Origin: Thermoplasmata archaeon
GTDB taxonomy: Archaea; Thermoplasmatota; Thermoplasmata; Lutacidiplasmatales; UBA184
Length of the DNA stretch: 10,993 nucleotides
Direction: 5' to 3'
NCBI GenBank assembly: GCA_030039825.1
Contig: JASHUV010000135.1
Coordinates: 1-10,993, forward strand
Shown: piece after piece, positions 1 through 10,993 of the stretch
Layout of the letters: every line of letters begins with the position of its first letter
Position numbering within the stretch: the stretch's first letter is position 1
Notes under the pieces: model-generated
What the model was told of the DNA's origin: nothing
Database searches by the model: none
The model's input: only the letters and a program-made list of their open reading frames with translations
Program-made: the position numbers and the translations under genes

Positions 1-197
1 ATTCGGTGAGCCTGAACCTGTCCGAGGTCGGAATCAGCGGCGCCGTCGCCATGACCGGGTCCGGCGCGAGCGGCACCTACACCTACTCCGGCGCGGCGAC
101 CGCCCCCACGACCGCGGGAACGTACTACATCTTCCTCACCGCCAAGGACTCCGCCGGACGGACGACGACGACCGCCGTGGCGCTGTCCGCCTCCTAG
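1..197 (+). CDS. 3' end of a secreted, probably pilin-like protein (5' partial)
   Basis: The frame is open from the left edge to a TAG at 195-197, so only about 64 C-terminal residues are visible and the true start is outside the window. The peptide is rich in Thr, Ser, Gly and Ala, with alternating small and aromatic residues (GTYTYSG, then GTYYIFLTAKDSAGRTTTT). This is the look of a beta-sandwich or Ig-like extracellular domain. It has no cysteine, no transmembrane helix and few charges. Archaeal type IV pilins and archaellins often end in such a domain, and two pilin-like genes lie directly downstream on the same strand, so a pilin or other cell-surface protein is the likely identity. The diagnostic N-terminal signal peptide cannot be seen. 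Any other secreted protein with a C-terminal Ig-like domain would look the same. Confidence 0.6.
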   Translation, partial: SVSLNLSEVGISGAVAMTGSGASGTYTYSGAATAPTTAGTYYIFLTAKDSAGRTTTTAVALSAS

Positions 198-275: not shown

Positions 276-305
276 GCTAAATACCAAAGGCCCGCCTTAT
301 TCATG
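276..305 (+). promoter_or_regulatory. TATA box and probable leaderless start of the cysteine-rich pilin
   Basis: An AT-rich element CTAAATAC (277-284) stands out in a GC-rich background. Its centre lies about 24 bases upstream of the ATG at 303, which is close to the normal archaeal TATA-to-start distance. The transcript would therefore begin at or next to the start codon. The bases before the ATG (CCCGCCTTATTC) hold no GGAGG-like sequence, which fits a leaderless mRNA. A second in-frame ATG lies at 309 and could be used instead. Confidence 0.5.
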
Positions 306-1058
306 CGGATGAAGACGTACCGGCGCTCCCGGCGGGGGGTCTCGGGCATCATCGCCACGATCCTCCTGGTCGCGATCACCATCGCGGCCGGGGTCGCGCT
401 CTGGACGTTCCGGATCGTCTCCCTTCCCTACGCTCCCCCGACGTTCACGTACGTCGCCCAGGGGGGAGTGCCCGAGCCGGTCTACGGGGACGGCACCGAC
501 TGCTCGGGCGGGGGTTTCGGCGACACGGGGAACCAGGTCTGCCTGACGCTCCCGGCGACCCTCCTGATCATCAGCTCCCACGATCCCGAGGACATCCCGT
601 TAACGAACCTCTTCTTCGACATGACGTGCAACGGCACCACCTACCTGAGCGCGAGCTTCGCCTCGATCGAGTGGGTGCCGGGGGAGAACGCCGCTCCGGG
701 CGCCGGGGCCCCCGAGCTCGGGAGCTGCGGGACGTTCCTGCCGCCCCGGGCCTACTTCGACCGGCTCGCGTTCTTCGACCAGGCCACCCCGGGGGCCACG
801 TCGCTCGAGGTCGGCGACATGATCGTGATCTACGACAAGACGTTCTACTGCGACGACAACGGCGTCGTCACGAGCTGCGACGAGGACTTCCACGGCTTCC
901 CGCCGTGGTGCATCTCCGGCGGGGCGAACTGCCAACTCCGGATCCAGTACGAGACCCCCGACGAGAACGTCACGGTCGCGAACATCCCGATGACGGACTT
1001 CTCCGCGGTCGGATGTCCCCCCTCGTGCTACCAATCGATGCCGGCCGCGCCCTCCTGA
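303..1058 (+). CDS. Archaeal type IV pilin, cysteine-rich
   Basis: This 251-residue protein begins with a basic stretch (residues 4-11, KTYRRSRR), a glycine at 12, then a hydrophobic helix VSGIIATILLVAITIAAGVA. This is the class III signal peptide of archaeal type IV pilins: prepilin peptidase cuts after Gly12, and the helix both anchors the subunit in the membrane and packs the filament core. The remaining ~215 residues would face outward. They hold ten cysteines (for example TDC, VCL, MTC, FYC, TSC, PWC, NCQ, GCP, SCY), an even number that suits disulfide bonds, and two N-glycosylation sequons (NGT, NVT). The ATG at 303 suits the upstream TATA box as a leaderless start. It stands between another likely surface-protein gene and the pilus assembly operon, so it is a plausible major or minor subunit of that pilus. 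Which one cannot be told from sequence. Confidence 0.85.
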   Translation: MRMKTYRRSRRGVSGIIATILLVAITIAAGVALWTFRIVSLPYAPPTFTYVAQGGVPEPVYGDGTDCSGGGFGDTGNQVCLTLPATLLIISSHDPEDIPLTNLFFDMTCNGTTYLSASFASIEWVPGENAAPGAGAPELGSCGTFLPPRAYFDRLAFFDQATPGATSLEVGDMIVIYDKTFYCDDNGVVTSCDEDFHGFPPWCISGGANCQLRIQYETPDENVTVANIPMTDFSAVGCPPSCYQSMPAAPS

Positions 1059-1388: not shown

Positions 1389-2318
1389 GTGAATCGGGCA
1401 CGACGGGGCGTCAAGGCGCGGCAGTTCCGACGCCGGATGGGTCGCGACCGGCGCGCCGTCGTGTCGGTGGTCGGCACGCTGCTCTCGCTCCTCGTCTTCT
1501 TCGCGCTGTTCGGGATCTTCCTGACCCAGGTGGCCCCCGTCTGGATGTCGGAGAACGAGGAGGCGCTCACCGTCCAGCTCGAGTCCTCGCTCGGGAACCT
1601 CAAGGCGGACATCGACACCCAGGTGACGGAGGGCGGGCCGTCGGTCCTCTCCGTGCCGTTCCAGCTCAATTCGGCGACGATCCCGCTCCTCGCCCAGCCG
1701 ACGTCGGCGTACTTCTCGTTCATCCCCGGCGCGATCGGCATCTTCTCCAACGTGACGATGCAGCCGGCGCCGGGAGCGACGGGCCACTCGATCTTCACCG
1801 AGAACATCAGCCTCGGGGTCTTCACCCTCGTCGTCCCCAACCGGTACTACGCCCCGCAGACCTTCTCGATGGAGAACGACGCCGTCATCCAGTCCCAGGG
1901 GACCGGCCAGCAGGTCATCGAGTTCCCCCCGACCTTCTCGCTCAACAGCACCCCCTCCGGGATCGACCTGACCGCCTCCATCGTCGACCTCACCGGGACG
2001 TCGACCCAGTCGACCGGCCTCGGCACCCAGGAGGTCTTCTCGCACTTCGTGACCACCCAGAGCATCGAGAGCACGAGCGCGAACCACGAGCTCAACGCGA
2101 CGTTCACCGAGGGGACGAGCTACCCGTGCGCCTGGACCCAGTTCCTCTCCTCGACGCTGAACGCGTCGGGGGTCTCGGTCACCCACACGATCACGCCGTC
2201 GAGCTGCCCGACGTCCGTCCCGAGCCCGGTCCCGGTCAAGATCACCTTCCGCGGGCTCACCCAGTTCACGCTCATCTACTCCGAGATCCGCGTGGTCATC
2301 GGCGTGGGCACCGAGTGA
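1389..2318 (+). CDS. Pilin-like membrane-anchored surface protein, first gene of pilus operon
   Basis: From the GTG at 1389 this encodes 309 residues; an ATG at 1437 would give 293. I chose the GTG because it is the first start after the predicted transcription start and a G-run (1374-1380) lies 8 bases before it, but the evidence is weak. A basic stretch (GRDRRA) precedes a single hydrophobic helix (VVSVVGTLLSLLVFFALFGIFL), then VWMSENEEALTVQ and a long extracellular part. This resembles the archaeal pilin/flagellin-like group with a shortened class III signal. The cut site is not a clean Gly but probably Ala in RRA|VVS. The outer part is rich in Ser and Thr, with five N-glycosylation sequons (NVT, NIS, NST, NAT, NAS) and only two cysteines. 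It ends 13 bases before the ATPase start, so it is likely a minor pilin or a pilus anchor of the machine encoded downstream. The exact role is unknown. Confidence 0.75.
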   Translation: MNRARRGVKARQFRRRMGRDRRAVVSVVGTLLSLLVFFALFGIFLTQVAPVWMSENEEALTVQLESSLGNLKADIDTQVTEGGPSVLSVPFQLNSATIPLLAQPTSAYFSFIPGAIGIFSNVTMQPAPGATGHSIFTENISLGVFTLVVPNRYYAPQTFSMENDAVIQSQGTGQQVIEFPPTFSLNSTPSGIDLTASIVDLTGTSTQSTGLGTQEVFSHFVTTQSIESTSANHELNATFTEGTSYPCAWTQFLSSTLNASGVSVTHTITPSSCPTSVPSPVPVKITFRGLTQFTLIYSEIRVVIGVGTE

Positions 2319-2331: not shown

Positions 2332-4005
2332 GTGAGCAGCTCGTCGTTCCGGGTCAAGATCCCCCGTACCCCCTCCGAGGAGCGGGGCGCGAGCGCCGGC
2401 CCCGCCACGGCGGAGGGCGACGACCTCCCCGGGACGTTCATCACGGCGATGCCGCCGCTGGCGGGACCGGAGGTCAAGGAGCTCCAGGTCTCGGCGATCC
2501 ACCCGCCGTACGCCTACGGCCGGATCAGCTACAACGAGCAGAAGAAGGAGTACCTCTACGAGGTCATCGAACCCCAGCTCTCCGCGCACGAGCGCGACCT
2601 CGTCGAGCACCTCAAGGCGACCCTGACCCAGATCATGGGCCCAGAGGTCGCCTCGATGTCGCTCGCCGACAAGCGGACCTACATCCGCGGCGAGGTCGAG
2701 GGCTACCTCAAGAGCCGGGAGATGACCGTGGGGCCGCTCTCGGTGGAGCGGATCATCTACTACATCCAGAGGGACTTCGTCGGCTACGGGCCGGTCGACG
2801 CGCTGATCTCCGATCCCGAGGTGGAGGACATCTCCTGCGACGGCGTCGACGTTCCGCTGTTCGTCTTCCACGGGGCGTTCGAATCGGTGAAGTCGAACGT
2901 GTTGTTCTCCGACGAGGACACGCTCAATTCCTTCATCGTCTCGCTCGGGCAGCGCTGCGGCAAGGCGGTCAGCGTCTCGGCCCCGATCCTCGACGGCACG
3001 ACCCCGGAGGGGCACCGCGTCCAGGCGACGTACGCCCGCGAGGTCACGACGCGCGGGGCGAGCTTCACGATCCGACGGTTCAAGGAGCGGCCGTTCACCC
3101 CGGTCGACCTCATCACGACGGGGAGCGCCTCGAAGGAGATGATCGCCTACCTGTGGCTCGCGGCCGAGCAGGGCGAGTCGCTGATCATCTGCGGCGGCCC
3201 GGCGTCCGGCAAGACGAGCACGCTCAACGCCGTCGCGCTGTTCATCCCCCCGACCTCCAAGATCGTCTCCATCGAGGACACCCGCGAGGTGAACCTCCCG
3301 CACGAGAACTGGATCCCGGGCGCCACGCGCAGCGGCACGGGGGACCGTGGCCCGGACGGCAAGGCCGCCGGCGAGGTCGACATGTTCGACCTCGTGCGGG
3401 CCGCCCTCCGGCAGCGCCCGAACTACATCATCGTCGGGGAGGTGCGGGGAAAGGAGACTTACACGATGTTCCAGGCGATGGCGACGGGCCACACCACCTA
3501 CTCGACGATGCACGCCGACAGCGTGAAGTCGATGGTGAACCGGCTCGAGAATCCCCCGATCAACACCCCGCGCATCCTGCTCTCGGCGCTGAACAACGTG
3601 ATCATCCAGGTCCAGGCCCGGACCGACAAGGGCGTCGTCCGCCGGATCAAGCAGATCCTCGAGATCGTCGGGTTCGAGCCCGAGACGAACGAGCTCATCA
3701 CGAACACCGTCTACGAGTGGGACCCCGGCACCGACACGTTCGTGTTCAAGGGCCACTCCTTCCTGTTTGACAAGATCATGGAACTGAAGAACCTCACCCA
3801 CGAGGAGATGGACGCCGAGTTCGACCGACGCGTCACCGTCCTCGACTTCCTCGCGAGGCGGAAGATCAACGACCACCGGGCGCTGTGGAAGGCGGTCACG
3901 GCCTACTACAAGGACCCGACCGGCGTCCTCAACATCCTGAAGGCCGACAACGCGCCCGGCCCGGTCCGGGCCGCCGGCGCGCCCGCCCCCGAGGAGGAGG
4001 CCTAG
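2332..4005 (+). CDS. Type II/IV secretion (TadA/GspE-like) pilus assembly ATPase, first copy
   Basis: This 557-residue cytoplasmic ATPase belongs to the VirB11/GspE superfamily that powers archaeal pili and archaella. The N-terminal ~145 residues form the family's variable domain, with the block KKEYLYEVIEPQLSA. The central N-domain of the motor includes PEVEDISCDGVDVPLFVFH. The catalytic domain carries Walker A GGPASGKT (288-295), the Asp box IVSIEDTRE (311-319), Walker B YIIVGEVRG (365-373, Glu370) and a full His box GHTTYSTMHADS (386-397, His387 and His394). All catalytic motifs are intact. The tetracysteine zinc site of bacterial GspE/PilB is absent, as is usual in archaeal forms. The C-terminal end is Ala/Pro-rich and acidic. 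It is followed with no gap by the platform protein genes, so it is probably the assembly motor of this pilus. ArlI of archaella is a relative, but no other archaellum genes are here. Confidence 0.93.
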   Translation: MSSSSFRVKIPRTPSEERGASAGPATAEGDDLPGTFITAMPPLAGPEVKELQVSAIHPPYAYGRISYNEQKKEYLYEVIEPQLSAHERDLVEHLKATLTQIMGPEVASMSLADKRTYIRGEVEGYLKSREMTVGPLSVERIIYYIQRDFVGYGPVDALISDPEVEDISCDGVDVPLFVFHGAFESVKSNVLFSDEDTLNSFIVSLGQRCGKAVSVSAPILDGTTPEGHRVQATYAREVTTRGASFTIRRFKERPFTPVDLITTGSASKEMIAYLWLAAEQGESLIICGGPASGKTSTLNAVALFIPPTSKIVSIEDTREVNLPHENWIPGATRSGTGDRGPDGKAAGEVDMFDLVRAALRQRPNYIIVGEVRGKETYTMFQAMATGHTTYSTMHADSVKSMVNRLENPPINTPRILLSALNNVIIQVQARTDKGVVRRIKQILEIVGFEPETNELITNTVYEWDPGTDTFVFKGHSFLFDKIMELKNLTHEEMDAEFDRRVTVLDFLARRKINDHRALWKAVTAYYKDPTGVLNILKADNAPGPVRAAGAPAPEEEA

Positions 4006-4010
4006 ATGGC
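3996..4010 (+). promoter_or_regulatory. Stop-start junction with embedded ribosome site (copy 1)
   Basis: GGAGGCCTAGATGGC holds the GGAGG ribosome site within the last Glu-Ala codons of the ATPase, its TAG stop, and the next ATG directly after with no base between. The layout favours re-initiation by ribosomes that finish the ATPase. The identical 15 bases occur again at 4971-4985. Confidence 0.7.
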
Positions 4011-4980
4011 CGCCCCCGGGGGCCCCGACGGGGACGACGGGCCGCTACCGGACGCCGCGCCGGTCCGCCTCGTCCGGGTCGCCCGGGGCTCGCAACCGAC
4101 CCACGCGGCCCTGACCGGCTTCCAGCAGTGGGCCTGGCGGACGTTCCGCGAGACCGTCCTCCGCCACCCGCCGGACCCGTCGCTCGACGAGGCGCTCGCC
4201 AAGGCCCACATGCGCCTGCGGGGCGACGAGTACCTGGCCCAGGTCTACGCGACGACGCTCCTCGCGGGCCTCGGGCTCGCCGTCGCGGGGATCGCGATCT
4301 TCGCCGTCCTCGCCCTCTCGGGCCTCGCCCTCTTCGGGGCGATCTTCGACGTCCTCATCCCCGTCGCGGCGACGCCGCTCGTCTTCCTCATGATGCAGGG
4401 CGCGCCGGGTCGGGTCGCGAAGGCCCGCGGCCGCCGGATCGACGCGAGGATCTCCTCGGCGATGAGCTTCGTGAGCGCGATGGCCTCGGCCGACGTCAAC
4501 GTCGACCAGATCTTCCGCGAGCTCGCCCGCCAGAAGATCTACGGGGACGTCGCGGAGGAGGCCGCGTGGATCACCCGCGACACCGAGCTCCTCGGCGTCG
4601 ACATCCTGACCGCCCTCAAGGACGGGGCGACCCGGACGCCCTCGAAGCGCTGGCAGGAGTTCCTGCAGGGCGTCGTGACGACGGCGACGAGCGGGGGGCA
4701 GCTGAAGCCCTACTTCCTGCTCAAGACCGAGCAGTTCGAGCAGGAGCACAAGCTCGAGATGCTCCGGCGGGTCGAGACGATGGGCCTCTTCGCCGAGACG
4801 TTCGTCACCGTCGTCGTGGCGTTCCCTCTCTTCCTCGTGATCATCATCGCCATCTTCGCCATCATCGGCAGCGGCGGGAGCTTCATGATCGAGATCCTCT
4901 TCCTGATCGTCGGGGTGATGATCCCCGTCTCCCAGGTCGGGTTCATCATCCCGATGCAGTCGCTCGCCTCGGAGGCCTAG
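4006..4980 (+). CDS. GspF/TadC-like pilus platform membrane protein, first copy
   Basis: The 324-residue product has the layout of the type II secretion F (T2SSF) family, the inner-membrane platform on which the ATPase acts. A ~80-residue soluble N-terminus contains ALAKAHMRLRGDEYLAQVY. Two hydrophobic helices follow at about 83-105 and 107-130. A cytoplasmic helical domain comes next (about 136-260, with ISSAMSFVSAMASADVNVDQ, then RWQEFLQGVVTTATSGG). Two final helices lie at about 266-288 and 293-316. The size matches one TadB or TadC unit (~300 residues), about half the length of ArlJ or GspF-type double-domain proteins. The next gene supplies a second such unit, so the two probably pair. 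The ATG directly abuts the ATPase stop, with the ribosome site inside the upstream gene. The start is well supported. Confidence 0.88.
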   Translation: MAAPGGPDGDDGPLPDAAPVRLVRVARGSQPTHAALTGFQQWAWRTFRETVLRHPPDPSLDEALAKAHMRLRGDEYLAQVYATTLLAGLGLAVAGIAIFAVLALSGLALFGAIFDVLIPVAATPLVFLMMQGAPGRVAKARGRRIDARISSAMSFVSAMASADVNVDQIFRELARQKIYGDVAEEAAWITRDTELLGVDILTALKDGATRTPSKRWQEFLQGVVTTATSGGQLKPYFLLKTEQFEQEHKLEMLRRVETMGLFAETFVTVVVAFPLFLVIIIAIFAIIGSGGSFMIEILFLIVGVMIPVSQVGFIIPMQSLASEA

Positions 4981-4985
4981 ATGGC
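4971..4985 (+). promoter_or_regulatory. Stop-start junction with embedded ribosome site (copy 2)
   Basis: The same GGAGGCCTAGATGGC as at 3996-4010 joins the two platform genes: a GGAGG inside the last codons, TAG, then ATG with no gap. It implies tight translational coupling of the two membrane proteins. Confidence 0.7.
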
Positions 4986-5961
4986 GACGGCGAAGGTCTC
5001 CTCGGGCTTCATCGACGCCCACGCCGCCCGCGCGGCCCAGGCGCTCATCCCGCAGAAGGAGACCCCGAAGCTCCGCAAGGAGCTCAAGATCCTCGTCCTC
5101 GGCTCGGCCGGGGCCGTCGTGATGTTCCTCATCGGGGTCCTGAACCTCGCCGGGGCCATCGCGACGCCGCTCGCCCCGGGCGAGGCGCTCGGGACGAACC
5201 CCGGGATCGACTTCTTCGTCCTCGGTGCCGTCCTCATCCTCGGGCCGTTCGGCTTCGCCGAGACGGCGCGGATCCGGCGGATCGACAAGATCGAGGAGCG
5301 CCTCCCCGACTTCCTGCGGGACGTCGCCGAGGCCGGACGCTTCGGGATGACCCTCCCCGACGCCATCATCGTCGCCTCCCGGGGCCGCTACGGCCTCCTG
5401 ACCGACGAGATCAAGCGGATGGCGAGCCAGCTCGAGTGGGGGGTGCCGGTCGCGACGGCCCTCCACCTCTTCGAGGAGCGCGTCCCCACGCCGCTCGTCC
5501 AGCGCGTCGTCTCGATCATCACGCGGGCGAACGAGGCCGGCGGCAACGTCGCCGACGTCCTCACGATGGTCGCGCACGACACCCGCGAGGTCCAGAACCA
5601 GCTCGCGGCGCGGAAGATCTCGATGCTGACCTACGTGACGGTCATCTACATCTCGTTCTTCGTCTTCCTCGTCACGATCTACATCATGGCGGCCGTCTTC
5701 CTCCCCCAGATGGTCGTCGCCGGGCAGGGCATCGCCGCGTCGAGCCTGTCGAGCGGCGGGGCCGTCACGCTCTCCTTCACGCTCGTGCCGGCGCTCTTCA
5801 TCGCCTTCCTGATCGCCGTCATCGTCCACGCGATCGGGGACGGCATCATGGCCGGGGTCCTCTTCTCCGGGAAGTACGCCGAGGGCTTCCAGCACGCGAC
5901 GATCATGCTGATCGCGGGCTGGGCGATCATGCGCTTCGTCGTCCCCCCGATCGGGGGCTAG
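4981..5961 (+). CDS. GspF/TadC-like pilus platform membrane protein, second copy
   Basis: This 326-residue T2SSF-family protein has a basic N-terminus, helices at about 37-59 and 76-93, a cytoplasmic domain (about 97-215), and helices at about 218-241, 266-285 and 305-323. The last is an extra helix compared with its upstream neighbour. The cytoplasmic part shows the family pattern clearly: a charged entry (RIRRIDKIEERLPDFLRDVA), a LEWGVPVATALHLF stretch, and IITRANEAGGNVADVLTMVA. In this family the pattern corresponds to the GG-containing helical bundle that touches the ATPase. It starts immediately after the TAG of the first platform gene and is followed 16 bases later by the second ATPase. 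It likely forms a heteromeric platform with the upstream protein, as TadB and TadC do in bacterial Tad pili. The pairing is inference from order and size. Confidence 0.9.
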   Translation: MATAKVSSGFIDAHAARAAQALIPQKETPKLRKELKILVLGSAGAVVMFLIGVLNLAGAIATPLAPGEALGTNPGIDFFVLGAVLILGPFGFAETARIRRIDKIEERLPDFLRDVAEAGRFGMTLPDAIIVASRGRYGLLTDEIKRMASQLEWGVPVATALHLFEERVPTPLVQRVVSIITRANEAGGNVADVLTMVAHDTREVQNQLAARKISMLTYVTVIYISFFVFLVTIYIMAAVFLPQMVVAGQGIAASSLSSGGAVTLSFTLVPALFIAFLIAVIVHAIGDGIMAGVLFSGKYAEGFQHATIMLIAGWAIMRFVVPPIGG

Positions 5962-5965
5962 GAGG
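5961..5965 (+). promoter_or_regulatory. Ribosome binding site of the second ATPase, long spacing
   Basis: GGAGG (5961-5965, extended to GGAGGGG) overlaps the last base of the upstream stop codon and lies 12 bases before the ATG at 5978. The other three operon genes show tighter spacing, so this start may be used less efficiently. No alternative start codon lies closer. Confidence 0.5.
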
Positions 5966-5977
5966 GGCGCGACGACG

Positions 5978-7777
5978 ATGGCGAGCGAGGTCGAGGGAGC
6001 GGCGGCGAGCACGGACGACGGGACGCTCGGTCGCCCCCCGCCGCGCCCCGCGACGTTCTTCTCCCCCCTCCTCAAGCTCGGGGCCGCGCTCTCGCGGGGC
6101 GCGAGCGGACCGAGGGCCGTCCGGCTCGCCCGCCTCGGGGTCTCGGGCCAGGGCGCCGAGGGCACGACGACCCCGATCCCGCCGATCAAGGACCCGCTCG
6201 TCAAGGAGCTCGACCTCGCGCCGATCCAGGACGGGCTCTCCTACGTCCGGGTCAGCTACCACACCGGCCGCAACGAGTACCTCTACGAGGTCATCGAACC
6301 GCCGCTCTCGGCGATCGAGACCTCCCTTCTTGACCGGCTGAAGATCGCGCTCATCGACCAGTTCCAGCCGCTGCCGGATCTCGACGTCGCCACGAAGCGG
6401 ACCGAGCTCCGCAAGATGGTCGACGACCAGCTGAAGGCCTGGCAGCTCTCCCCGAGCCCCGTCACGAAGGGGCGCCTCGTCTACTACCTCGATCGCGAGT
6501 TCATCGGGACCGGGATCGTCGAGGTCCCGATGACCGACACCGAGGTCGAGGACATCTCCTGCGACGGCGTCGGCATCCCCCTCTACATCTACCACCGCAA
6601 GTTCGGCTCGATCCGCTCGAACGTCAAGTTCTCGGACAACAAGCAGGTCGACGACTACGTCGTCTGGATCGCTCAGCGCTCCGGCAAGCACATCAGCGTC
6701 GCGAGCCCGATGCTCGACGCGACGATGCCGGACGGCTCGCGCCTTCAGGCGACGCTCGGGACCCACGTCACGAAGCGCGGGAGCTCCTTCACGATCCGGC
6801 GCTTCCGGGACCACCCGTTCACGCCGGTCGACCTCCTGAAGTTCAAGACCATGAGCCCGGAGATGATGGCGTACCTCTGGATCGCCATCGAGTCGGGCCA
6901 GTCGATGATGGTCTGCGGGGGCACGGCCTCCGGGAAGACCACGACGCTCAACGCGACGCTCCTGTTCATCCCGAGCCAGATGAAGATCGTCTCGATCGAG
7001 GACACGCGGGAGTTGAACCTCCCCCACGAGAACTGGGTCCCGTCGCTCACGCGCGCCGGCTTCGGCGCGAAGAACGTGGTGAGCGGGAAGGCGCCCGGGG
7101 AGATCGACATGTTCGACCTCCTCGCCGCCGCGCTCCGCCAGCGGCCCCAGTACCTGATGGTCGGGGAGGTGCGGGGGGCCGAGGCGTTCATCGTCTTCCA
7201 GGCGATGGCGACCGGGAAGACCTGCTACACCACGTTCCACGCGGAGAGCGTCTCGGCGATGGTCCACCGGATGGAGAACCCGCCGATCTCCCTCCCGCGC
7301 TCGCTCGTGAGCGCCCTCAACCTCGTCCTCCTGCAGCGTCAGGTGAAGGTCGGGACGAAGATGACCCGCCGCGTCCAGAGCCTGACGGAGATCGTCGGCC
7401 TCGACCCGGAGACGAACGAGCTCATCACGAACTCCGTCTACTCCTGGGACCCCGGCGACGACACCTTCCTCTATTCGGGGCACTCGTACATCTACGAGCG
7501 CGTCGCGATGATGAAGAACTGGTCGATGAAGGAGATGGAGCGCGAGGTCCAGAACCGGACCGAGATGCTCGAGTACATGAACTGGCGCGACGCCCGCGCC
7601 GACCGCCAGAACCCGTTCACGCACCGGGACGTCGGGCGGGTCGTCGCGTTCTACTACAAGGACCCCAAGGCGGCCCTCGAAGAGGCCCGCTCGGAGATGG
7701 CGATCAAGCGCCGCACCCCGCCCGCGGCCTCGAGCTCGCCGGGGGCGAGCCTCGCGAGCGGCACCGCGCGGGCGTGA
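5978..7777 (+). CDS. Type II/IV secretion (TadA/GspE-like) ATPase, second copy
   Basis: This 599-residue ATPase is a clear paralogue of the one at 2332-4005. They share blocks such as EYLYEVIEP, VEDISCDGV, GSSFTIRRF/GASFTIRRF, FTPVDL and NLPHENW. Motifs: Walker A GGTASGKT (314-321), Asp box IVSIEDTRE (337-345), Walker B YLMVGEVRG (392-400, Glu397). The His box reads GKTCYTTFHAES (413-424): the first His is Lys414, while His421 is kept. The N-terminus is about 25 residues longer, Pro/Arg-rich, and unlike the first copy. P-loop, Asp box and Walker B are intact, so it should bind and hydrolyse ATP. Possible roles are a second assembly motor for a different pilin set, a retraction or regulatory motor, or a partner in a mixed hexamer. 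None can be chosen from sequence. It is the fifth gene of the operon and its stop overlaps the methyltransferase start. Confidence 0.92.
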   Translation: MASEVEGAAASTDDGTLGRPPPRPATFFSPLLKLGAALSRGASGPRAVRLARLGVSGQGAEGTTTPIPPIKDPLVKELDLAPIQDGLSYVRVSYHTGRNEYLYEVIEPPLSAIETSLLDRLKIALIDQFQPLPDLDVATKRTELRKMVDDQLKAWQLSPSPVTKGRLVYYLDREFIGTGIVEVPMTDTEVEDISCDGVGIPLYIYHRKFGSIRSNVKFSDNKQVDDYVVWIAQRSGKHISVASPMLDATMPDGSRLQATLGTHVTKRGSSFTIRRFRDHPFTPVDLLKFKTMSPEMMAYLWIAIESGQSMMVCGGTASGKTTTLNATLLFIPSQMKIVSIEDTRELNLPHENWVPSLTRAGFGAKNVVSGKAPGEIDMFDLLAAALRQRPQYLMVGEVRGAEAFIVFQAMATGKTCYTTFHAESVSAMVHRMENPPISLPRSLVSALNLVLLQRQVKVGTKMTRRVQSLTEIVGLDPETNELITNSVYSWDPGDDTFLYSGHSYIYERVAMMKNWSMKEMEREVQNRTEMLEYMNWRDARADRQNPFTHRDVGRVVAFYYKDPKAALEEARSEMAIKRRTPPAASSSPGASLASGTARA

Positions 7778-8676
7778 GCGCCCCGCGGGCCCTTCCCTAC
7801 GCGCGCCTCGCCGCGCGCTCGGGGGGGCGCCTCGACCTCTTCCACGGCGACGCCGTCGCGGGACTCACCTCGGTCCTCGCGGCCCGCTCCGTCGACGTCC
7901 TCGTCACCTCGCCGCCGTACAACATCGGGACGGCGTACTCCGGCTACGACGACGCGCGCCCCCGGACGGAGTACCTCGCCTGGATGCGCCGCGTCCGGGA
8001 CGCCGTCGACCGGGCGCTCGCCGACGGGGGCTCCTTCTTCCTGAACGTCGGCGGGCCCCCGAGCGACCCCGGCTGGCCCTGGGAGGTCGCCCGGACCGCG
8101 GGGGGGGCGCTCGTCCTGCAGAACGTGATCCACTGGGTGAAGTCGATCGCCATCGAACGGAGCGCCGCGGGGCGATCCGCCGGCCTCGACCGGGACCTCG
8201 CCGTCGGCCACTACAAGCCCGTCAACAGCCCGAGGTACCTGAACGGCGCCCACGAGTACATCTTCCACTTCACCCGCCGCGGGGACGTCCCCCTCGACCG
8301 GCTGGCGATCGGCGTACCGTACCAGGACCGGTCGAACGTCGGGCGCTGGAGCGCGGGCCGGGGGGGTCTCCGATGCCGGGGGAACGCCTGGTTCCTGCCG
8401 TATCCGACGATCCGACGGCGGGCGACCGACCGGCCCCACCCGGCGACGTTCCCGGTCGAGCTTCCCGAGCGTTGTCTCCGCCTGCACGGTGCGGAACGGA
8501 TACGGCTCGCCGTCGACCCGTTCCTCGGCCTCGGCGCGTCGGCCGTCGCGGCGGCCCGCGTCGGTGTCGCGTTCGTCGGTTTCGAGGTCGATGAGGGCTA
8601 CCTCCGCGAGGCCGTGGCCCGGCTGAGGACGGCGGGGGCCACGCCCCTCGCCGACGAGGCGACGCGGCGGGGGTGA
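7774..8676 (+). CDS. DNA methyltransferase, SPPY (N4-cytosine-like) class
   Basis: The 300-residue product is an S-adenosylmethionine-dependent DNA amino-methyltransferase of the COG0863 type. The catalytic motif IV is TSPPYNIG (45-52) and the cofactor-binding motif I is DPFLGLGAS (248-256), followed by GFEVD (269-273). Motif IV comes before motif I, which is the beta-class order. The Ser in SPPY is typical of N4-cytosine enzymes, though some N6-adenine enzymes share it. A further conserved-looking segment, RPHPATFPVELPERCL (220-235), lies just before motif I. The target-recognition part is probably the region between about 130 and 210. The GTG start overlaps the previous TGA (GTGA), there is no ribosome site, and the next possible start would remove motif IV. 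No restriction nuclease gene is visible, so it looks solitary, although the gene's own operon is a pilus cluster. The recognition sequence is unknown. Confidence 0.88.
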   Translation: MSAPRALPYARLAARSGGRLDLFHGDAVAGLTSVLAARSVDVLVTSPPYNIGTAYSGYDDARPRTEYLAWMRRVRDAVDRALADGGSFFLNVGGPPSDPGWPWEVARTAGGALVLQNVIHWVKSIAIERSAAGRSAGLDRDLAVGHYKPVNSPRYLNGAHEYIFHFTRRGDVPLDRLAIGVPYQDRSNVGRWSAGRGGLRCRGNAWFLPYPTIRRRATDRPHPATFPVELPERCLRLHGAERIRLAVDPFLGLGASAVAAARVGVAFVGFEVDEGYLREAVARLRTAGATPLADEATRRG

Positions 8677-9240: not shown

Positions 9241-10993
9241 TCAGCCGCCCATCCGTCGATCGGCCTTCTTCCTCCGGGCCTTCCCGGGCGGCGCCGCCGT
9301 CGCCGGCGGCGGGGCCGGGCCGGCGACGGGCTTCTGGACGGTCTCCGCGCCGCCGGCCCAGCGGATCAGGAGCTCGACCCCGAGCCGGGCGGGGTCCGTG
9401 ATCACGAGCGAGCCCCCGACCGTCCGGGTGATCTCCCGCGCCGCCGCCTCGTACTCGGGGTGCTCCGACCTCAGGAGGATCATCGTGAACTTGAGCGGGG
9501 TGACCGTCGCGAGCTCGTGGGCCCGCTCGACCGCCCGTGCCATCGCCACATCGAGCTGGCCCGACCGGACATGCCCGTCGCGGTCGGTGTAGGACTCGGG
9601 GAGCCCGTCCGTGATGAGGTAGACCTCCTTGCGAGTCGCCCGCGACGCGGCCAGGAGGAGGTGGGCCGTGTGGAGCGCCTCGGCCGTGTTCGTGAACGAC
9701 CCCGGGGTGCACTCCCACAGCTCGAGGAGGTCGAGGACGCGGACCTCGTTGTCGAAGGCGACCACGTCGATCGTCGCCTCGGGGTGGCGCTTTCGGATGG
9801 CGACGTAGAGCGCGAGCAGGGACTTCTTCGCCGCGGCGAGCTTCTCCGACTCCGACATGCTGCCGGACTTGTCGAAGATCATCACGACGTGGACCCGCTC
9901 GCTCGTGATCTCCCGGTAGACGAGGCTCGTCGACTCGTCGATGTGGCGCAGGCCCTCGAGGCGCGCCGCCAGGAGCGATCCCGGGAGGTCGATGTGGGCG
10001 ACCTCCTCCGAGCGCCTCAGGCGGGCCTTCTCGTAGATGCCCGTGGAGGCCGACCCGGCGAGCGAGAGTCGGACATCCGCCGGGAGCTGGCGGCTCGCCT
10101 CCTCGAGCACGAGCCGGGCGAACTTCTCGATGAGCCCGTAGGTGACGGCGATCTCCCCGCCCCTCTCGGTGACGAAGCCCCGCTCCTTGAGCTCCCGTTC
10201 CAACCGGTGCTCCTCGGCGTCGCGGACCCTCCGGTCGGACTCGCGGGCGGCGCGCTGTTCGGCCTCCCGTCGCTCCGCCTCGAGCGCCCGCTGCTGGGCC
10301 TCCGCCTCCTTCCTCTTCGCCTCGGCCTCCCGCTCGAGGTCCCGCTCCTGGGTGCGGTAGGAGCGGTCGACCGACTCGCTGAGACGTTCGCGCTCCTTGG
10401 GCGAGAGCGAGGCGATCGCGTCGCCGAGCTCCGAACGCCCCAGGGTCCGACCGGAACCGGTGAGGAGGGCGATCGTGAGCGGGCGACCGACGCCCTTCTC
10501 CGTCGGCGGGGCCGAGCCCCTCCGGCGGAAGAGCCCCTTCAGCCAGGCGACGAAACGGGCGACGGCGTCCCGGAGGCGGGCGAAGAGGCCCGCCCGGCCG
10601 GGCGGCTGCATCCAGGGCTGGTCCGGCAGGAGCAGCGCCGAGCGAACGTCGTCGAGCAGACCGTCGTCGAACCCGGAGAGGTCGAGGCCCCGGGCCTTCT
10701 GCCGGCGCGCCTCAAGCGCGGCGATCTCCGCGGCGACTGCCTCGGCGCTCTTGTGCGTGAGGGTCTCGAGCTCGGCGACGCGCCGGTCGTAGTCGCCCTG
10801 GACCCGGGAGAGCCGCCGGGCCGCCTGGCGACGGAGCCGCTCCCGCATCTCAGCGATCCGCTGCGCGAGGGCAGGGTCGGTCCGGGCCCGCTGCTCGAGG
10901 AGCGCGCGGGCCGCGTCGAACCCCCCCTCGGCGAGGGCCCGGATGACCTCGGCGGAGTCGAGCCGGTCGAGCAGGTCGTCGGAGACGACGTCC
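9241..10993 (-). CDS. VWA-domain protein with coiled coil (5' partial)
   Basis: The frame is open on the - strand from the right edge to the TGA at 9241-9243, giving at least 583 residues. An in-frame ATG exists at 10848, but helical, protein-like sequence continues upstream of it (DDLLDRLDSAEVIRALAEGG), so the real start is probably beyond the edge. Order from the N-terminus: a charged helical region; a Trp/Phe/Arg amphipathic stretch (FVAWLKGLFRRRG); a dense Glu/Arg/Ala coiled coil (about 10375-10175); then a VWA domain. The metal-binding (MIDAS) motif is intact: DKSGSMSES (DKSGSM at 9873-9856), a Thr in SFTNTAEAL, and Asp in ITDGLPE (Asp at 9609-9607). A Pro/Ala-rich basic tail (KARRKKADRR) ends it. 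VWA proteins of this cytoplasmic kind often work with a MoxR or magnesium-chelatase-like AAA+ ATPase as metal-dependent co-chaperones. A partner could lie just outside the window, which is inference. Confidence 0.85.
   Translation of the reverse strand, partial: DVVSDDLLDRLDSAEVIRALAEGGFDAARALLEQRARTDPALAQRIAEMRERLRRQAARRLSRVQGDYDRRVAELETLTHKSAEAVAAEIAALEARRQKARGLDLSGFDDGLLDDVRSALLLPDQPWMQPPGRAGLFARLRDAVARFVAWLKGLFRRRGSAPPTEKGVGRPLTIALLTGSGRTLGRSELGDAIASLSPKERERLSESVDRSYRTQERDLEREAEAKRKEAEAQQRALEAERREAEQRAARESDRRVRDAEEHRLERELKERGFVTERGGEIAVTYGLIEKFARLVLEEASRQLPADVRLSLAGSASTGIYEKARLRRSEEVAHIDLPGSLLAARLEGLRHIDESTSLVYREITSERVHVVMIFDKSGSMSESEKLAAAKKSLLALYVAIRKRHPEATIDVVAFDNEVRVLDLLELWECTPGSFTNTAEALHTAHLLLAASRATRKEVYLITDGLPESYTDRDGHVRSGQLDVAMARAVERAHELATVTPLKFTMILLRSEHPEYEAAAREITRTVGGSLVITDPARLGVELLIRWAGGAETVQKPVAGPAPPPATAAPPGKARRKKADRRMGG

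Follow-up and report, generated by a model that had tools for sequence, protein, structure and literature searches.

The closest described counterpart of the locus considered here is the CdiP operon of Cuniculiplasma divulgatum, reported in ISME J in 2025 (PMC12448462) and described there as encoding two ATPases, CdiPE1 and CdiPE2, and a platform whose N part is CdiPFa and whose C part is CdiPFb; its authors call the ATPase pair unique and find it enigmatic that a second ATPase should be needed. A passage on shared pilin sets by Makarova et al. (2016; PMC4858521) also mentions, for Aciduliprofundum boonei, one locus with two distinct ATPases and a single pilA-like gene. We analyzed a 10,993-nt stretch from a Thermoplasmata archaeon (contig JASHUV010000135.1 of assembly GCA_030039825.1; hereafter, the window), and found that it carries the core of a Thermoplasmata type IV pilus operon, consisting of a pilin-like gene, the ATPase gene E1, the N-terminal and C-terminal halves of the platform (Fa and Fb), and a second ATPase gene, E2. 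The two-motor arrangement itself is not new, having been reported in C. divulgatum; what is new is its breadth across the class, together with the ATP-site changes specific to each motor. Neither class-wide conservation nor paralogue-specific residues were found in the open-access literature, a coverage that leaves aside subscription papers, preprints and supplements.

Two features described for CdiP recur in the window, namely two paralogous ATPases in one operon and a platform encoded as separate N-part and C-part genes; this likeness is one of gene set, as given by the text description of C. divulgatum. The CdiP pilin genes are stated to be some 500 kb distant from the operon, although a figure legend of that paper puts the minor pilin inside it, whereas in the window two pilin-like genes are found just upstream. 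The CdiP pilus is described as adhesive and helical. The run comprises six genes, for a pilin, a pilin-like protein, E1, Fa, Fb and E2, with spacers of 13, 0, 0 and 16 bases among the last five (Table 1). The initial annotation, made from the sequence without database searches, had described ATPase, platform, platform and ATPase in one tight run, and the spacers of 0, 0 and 16 bases agree with it. The two outer open reading frames (ORFs), E1 and E2, match T2SSE with 115.5 and 119.4 bits (cut-off 24.9), and the inner ones, Fa and Fb, have one T2SSF domain each, with 43.4 and 68.7 bits (cut-off 25.2).

The same annotation had proposed that the four-gene order be sought in related genomes, and it is indeed not confined to one: besides the window, 42 of 45 loci of the same class (L064-L108) have E1-Fa-Fb-E2, as do all seven loci of family f19, which we take to be Thermoplasmataceae and in which the motif pattern is also the same, and locus L144 of the DHVE2 group, with typical E1 and E2 motifs. 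These tallies cover loci fetched for having hits, and hence are not frequencies. The three class loci departing from the pattern are L079, in which the assembly is interrupted where E2 would lie, and L091 and L096, which come from two same-genus genomes and were fetched precisely for being second, single-motor pilus loci; the latter two encode a divergent split platform, and their ATPases branch apart from E1 and E2. Locus L079 comes from the single-contig genome G053, in which E1-Fa-Fb is present and E2 was absent by six-frame search, and a run of 100 N (bases 3209-3308 of L079) starts 38 bases past the end of Fb, where E2 should begin, so that this apparent loss is uninformative.

In a separate draw we covered 71 genomes of the class, namely 70 that are at least 95% complete and the source genome of the window, which is 64% complete and amounts to 1.4 Mb over 213 contigs. 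At a match threshold of 1e-40, 42 of the 71 have a match and 29 have none. In 38 of the 42, both ATPases lie on the same contig and strand, and their starts are separated by 3.2 to 4.0 kb (the offset in G208, where E2 is cut by the contig end, is left uncounted); the other four (G095, G131, G134 and G178) have no more than distant homologues, located apart from one another. No genome in the draw has just one of E1 and E2. Counts follow the listed table rows, and the intervening platform genes were checked in the fetched loci alone. Beyond E1 and E2, the source genome has one T2SSE match, at 18.7 bits, below the cut-off.

Both ATPases belong to the GspE2/FlaI type by sequence and by motifs (E2 without the first His-box histidine), and E1 also by the fold of its AlphaFold model (mean predicted local distance difference test score 82.7), for which the best PDB match is 2OAP (afGspE2), followed by FlaI and then CpaF; a PDB sequence search with an alignment containing E1 and E2 likewise gave afGspE2/FlaI as best matches. 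The initial annotation had raised an analogy with PilB and PilT, and membership in either family did not hold up: E1 and E2 score 46.4 and 39.5 bits against the PilT-family profile (cut-off 319.1), which rules out PilT identity, and 44.3 and 53.7 bits against the PilB profile (cut-off 675.65). The TadA profile gave 147.8 and 145.3 (cut-off 373.15). Identity with the archaellum motor ArlI/ArlJ is ruled out by the split platform and by sub-cut-off scores, at 411.8 (E1) and 405 (E2) for the FlaI equivalog (cut-off 550), and at 62.6 for Fa (cut-off 550) and 52.6 for Fb (cut-off 400) for ArlJ, here two genes, not one.

E1 and E2 arose by duplication, inside Thermoplasmatota, of one such GspE2/FlaI-type motor. 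They are identical at 256 of 512 aligned residues (50%), and paralogues within one locus have a mean identity of about 47%. In a FastTree phylogeny of 199 ATPase domains, class E1 (52 tips) and class E2 (48 tips) form two clades with support of 1.0 each, and the class pairs group with those of f27 (gene order E-Fa-Fb-E) and f30/L124 (E-E-Fa-Fb) with support of 0.807, apart from haloarchaeal, methanogen, Poseidoniia-type and archaellum-like ATPases. Ultrafast bootstrap was 100 for class E1, class E2 and the whole class+f27+f30 group in an IQ-TREE analysis of 59 sequences. The ATPases therefore cluster with each other and not with separately encoded systems, in agreement with the duplication and divergence proposed in the initial annotation, and the assignment of each ATPase to its own pilus system is ruled out by the tree and gene order. 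The two have evolved at equal rates (mean pairwise distance 0.440 for E1 and 0.428 for E2, r 0.97, 61 loci). In the FastTree phylogeny, L199 and five pairs from the same genus that are divergent (L085-L089) fell outside the E1 and E2 clades on long branches; since they keep the E1/E2 motif pattern, we read this placement as long-branch attraction, and they were excluded from the clade counts and included in the motif tally given below.

Approximately unbiased tests rejected neither a single duplication for the class, f27 and f30 pairs (p 0.185) nor three separate ones (p 0.367). Placement of the f32 tandem pair in the same duplication was rejected (p 5.9e-5), so that at least two in-operon motor duplications took place in Thermoplasmatota. 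In family f32 (L112-L118), the independent tandem duplication has the order E-E-Fa-Fb, with six of the seven contigs reaching through Fb; its first copies form a clade (0.992), and its second copies do not.

The two motors have diverged at different parts of the ATP site, as judged from the motif alignment: E1 in the arginine-finger loop of its N-terminal domain and in the P-loop, and E2 in the first His-box residue. The tally included 66 E1, 63 E2 and 66 single-motor homologues; identical domains were removed from it, other than among the seven loci of f19, which joined the set afterwards. The Walker A lysine and threonine and the loop arginine are invariant in all three sets, and the Asp-box glutamate, the Walker B glutamate, the trans arginine (equivalent to CpaF R347) and the second His-box histidine are present in 66/66 E1, 66/66 single motors and all 62 E2 that reach them. 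Walker A, Asp box and Walker B are thus kept in both ATPases, as had been noted at the outset, and both look catalytically able.

In E1, the usual loop LDAT.PDGSR is changed to LDGT..EGHR. Its histidine occurs in 64 of 66 E1 (the exceptions being the f27 loci L109 and L110), where 65 of 66 single motors have serine; its glycine in 63/66, the single motors having alanine (48/66) or glycine (10/66); and its glutamate in 56/66, against aspartate in 62/66 single motors. The E1 P-loop varies between proline (34) and threonine (32), with threonine in 62/66 single motors. The first His-box histidine is present in every E1 and every single motor, and is lost in 58 of 62 E2. Over these 62, the position is occupied by lysine in 43, arginine in 8, threonine in 4, glutamine in 3 and histidine in 4. 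Locus L111, L124 and both f27 loci have lysine in the second ATPase and histidine in the first, while both copies in f32 retain the histidine. By motif spacing, H387 of E1 and K414 of E2 correspond to PilB H413. The changed E1 loop presumably matches the D215/R217/R223 stretch of CpaF. Those three CpaF residues are described in PMC12019362, and in PilB both His-box histidines and T411 are located at the packing interface, with H420 touching the gamma-phosphate (PMC5424180).

The platform on which these motors would act is single and split. Along the 555 positions of the ArlJ profile, Fa aligns to 6-244 and Fb to 259-536, and both halves are found in the same order on one ORF in 21 fetched loci, Archaeoglobi, Methanosarcinaceae and haloarchaea among them; the annotated pair of platform proteins is therefore better described as the N- and C-terminal halves of one ArlJ-like platform, and two complete platforms are ruled out. 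Fa and Fb are little alike (24% over 164 residues). A PDB search with the Fb alignment returned chance matches only. Fission of an archaeal two-domain platform was previously inferred for TadB/TadC (PMC6668835). An arrangement of one motor per half (E1 with Fa, E2 with Fb) received no support from mirror-tree partial correlations over 43 loci (E1-Fa 0.20, E1-Fb 0.26, E2-Fa 0.35, E2-Fb 0.05).

We tentatively favor, with a confidence somewhat short of even, the explanation that E1 and E2 serve this platform as an obligate, co-acting pair and not as the motors of two pili; one of the two may drive retraction. The mechanism we infer would involve either a single ring containing both proteins or two separate rings, working by turns or stacked, and E1 and E2 would differ in how they sense the gamma-phosphate or the neighboring subunit, giving one machine two kinds of power stroke. 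A more specific version, which we consider rather unlikely, is a ring of six in which E1 and E2 alternate, with two classes of ATP site; this would be a hetero-hexameric type IV pilus motor. The derived loop and P-loop of E1 presumably act at its own site, as would follow from the PilB packing scheme. If the first His-box residue acted at the neighbor's site, all derived residues would lie at interfaces between an E1 site and an E2 neighbor, while those between an E2 site and an E1 neighbor would stay ancestral. Such a two-class ring could be likened to F1-ATPase, with its catalytic and regulatory sites. The PilB passage allows action of the His box at the neighbor's site and does not settle it (PMC5424180).

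Several observations weigh against co-action. The mirror-tree partial correlation is highest for E1-E2 (0.68), but it is confounded, both being one protein family. Loss of the histidine in E2 is not universal (4/62 keep it), and the variety of its replacements (K, R, T and Q) also fits relaxed constraint; nor are loop and His-box changes tied to each other, since E1 of f27 is unchanged in the loop and its E2 has lysine. Co-retention was counted over related genomes, and an extension/retraction pair, if indispensable at all times, should show it just as much. Apparent absences of one member in drafts not included in the class draw trace mostly, though not all, to contig breaks. In an E2 search of G200 and eight further drafts, the E2 of G200 is cut by the contig end; E2 fragments at 70-83% identity occur in G003, G009, G010 and G017, either by themselves or on a different contig; the expected position lies past the contig end in G021; in G030 only E2 was seen; and G014 and G027 have only more distant matches to E2.

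An extension/retraction pair that evolved apart from PilB/PilT, with one paralogue assembling and the other disassembling the pilus through the same platform, is the main rival, and we regard it as somewhat unlikely. It would agree with two motors that both look active, differ in their sensing elements and share one platform, and the bacterial PilB/PilT pair is likewise attributed to ATPase amplification (PMC6668835); E1 and E2, however, score well short of the PilT and PilB cut-offs, and PilT is described in that paper as often lost, unlike E2 here. C. divulgatum cells are reported to have adhered without twitching (PMC12448462), and the single-motor Aap (PMC11178785) and Tad (PMC11300603) systems are described as doing both jobs, so that a second motor is neither needed for retraction nor proof of it. 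The statement in the initial annotation that retraction is not generally established in archaea is dated, as Sulfolobus Aap pili are reported to retract without PilT (PMC11178785).

If the two were instead assembly motors used alternatively on a common platform, according to the pilin or the conditions, for which the A. boonei locus with two ATPases and one pilA-like gene, discussed in connection with shared pilin sets (PMC4858521), would provide a parallel, they should be lost one at a time, but none of the 71 class genomes shows such loss, and we consider this improbable. The co-acting pair is favored over alternative motors because both ATPases look catalytically able, are encoded next to a single platform and are retained jointly, and because their reciprocal divergence affects elements that sense the gamma-phosphate or the adjacent subunit. 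Retention of a redundant duplicate for dosage, with no division of labor, would explain why catalytic residues are kept in both, but is highly improbable in view of the reciprocal, clade-wide ATP-site substitutions and of the low mean identity between paralogues of one locus.

Table 1. Features of the pilus operon and neighboring genes in the window.
Feature	Position	Strand	Evidence or remark
ORF end, cut by window start	3-197	+	weak immunoglobulin-like/PKD similarity, below cut-offs
Type IV pilin/archaellin-like pilin gene, upstream	303..1058	+	TIGR02537 N-terminal domain, 35.9 bits, cut-off 20
Pilin-like protein, class III-like N-terminus (RAVVSVVGTLLSLLVFF...VPVWM.ENE)	1392..2318	+	start about 1392, start codon unsettled
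E1, GspE2/FlaI-type pilus ATPase	2332..4005	+	GTG start after GGAGGT
E1 N-terminal-domain arginine-finger loop LDGTTPEGHR (usual LDAT.PDGSR)	2980..3033	+	motif tally
E1 Walker A GGPASGKT, variable in E1	3193..3216	+	motif tally
E1 first His-box histidine H387, kept	3490..3492	+	H in 66/66 E1
Fa, platform N-terminal half	4006..4980	+	T2SSF domain; ArlJ alignment
Fb, platform C-terminal half	4981..5961	+	T2SSF domain; ArlJ alignment
E2, paralogous GspE2/FlaI-type pilus ATPase	5978..7777	+	T2SSE domain
E2 arginine-finger loop, usual form LDATMPDGSR	6713..6742	+	motif tally
E2 first His-box position, K414 replaces histidine	7217..7219	+	motif tally
N6/N4 DNA methylase gene	7774-8676	+	PF01555, 111.6 bits
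von Willebrand A protein	9241-10992	-	PF13519, 32.7 bits

In 38 of 60 loci, counting single-motor loci and those of other classes, the best ATPase is immediately preceded by a homologue of the pilin-like gene that starts near position 1392 in the window; a Pfam scan of the protein from the window gave no family above cut-off. Downstream, the methylase gene overlaps the E2 stop by four bases; each of the ten pair loci fetched from the same genus (L085-L090 and L092-L095) has a homologue just 3′ of E2, and none was found in the three loci from other genera of the family (L097-L099). The von Willebrand A protein is also encoded near the pilus operon, and such proteins are listed as potential type IV pilus regulators in PMC4858521. 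A promoter and terminator scan gave no usable result, and a plasmid search returned five haloarchaeal records at less than 60% identity.

With these comparisons, the second ATPase passes from a one-species outlier, as it appeared in the 2025 paper, to a stable paired feature of many Thermoplasmata families, and the residues that distinguish the motors turn the question of why there are two into tests at defined positions. That motors were duplicated a second time, independently, in this phylum suggests that selection has repeatedly favored having two of them in one pilus operon. Among known systems, GspE2 of Archaeoglobus fulgidus (2OAP) and FlaI/ArlI (4IHQ, 4II7) have the fold and motifs seen in E1 and E2, but ArlI is described as the sole motor of its machine, unlike the pair (PMC12448462). 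The bacterial Tad system (CpaF, TadB/TadC) shares a two-gene platform, attributed to fission (PMC6668835), and a related ATPase fold, but differs in being described with one bifunctional ATPase (PMC11300603). PilT/PilU sets a precedent for two coupled paralogous motors on one platform: PilU is reported to work via PilT, and mixed hexamers were considered and argued against by the authors (PMC6762196). PilB/PilT and PilT/PilU resemble E1/E2 as paralogous motors on one platform, but their duplications are bacterial and the archaeal pair scores far below the PilT-family cut-off. E1/E2 thus offers an archaeal case, separate from PilB/PilT, of pilus-motor specialization after duplication.

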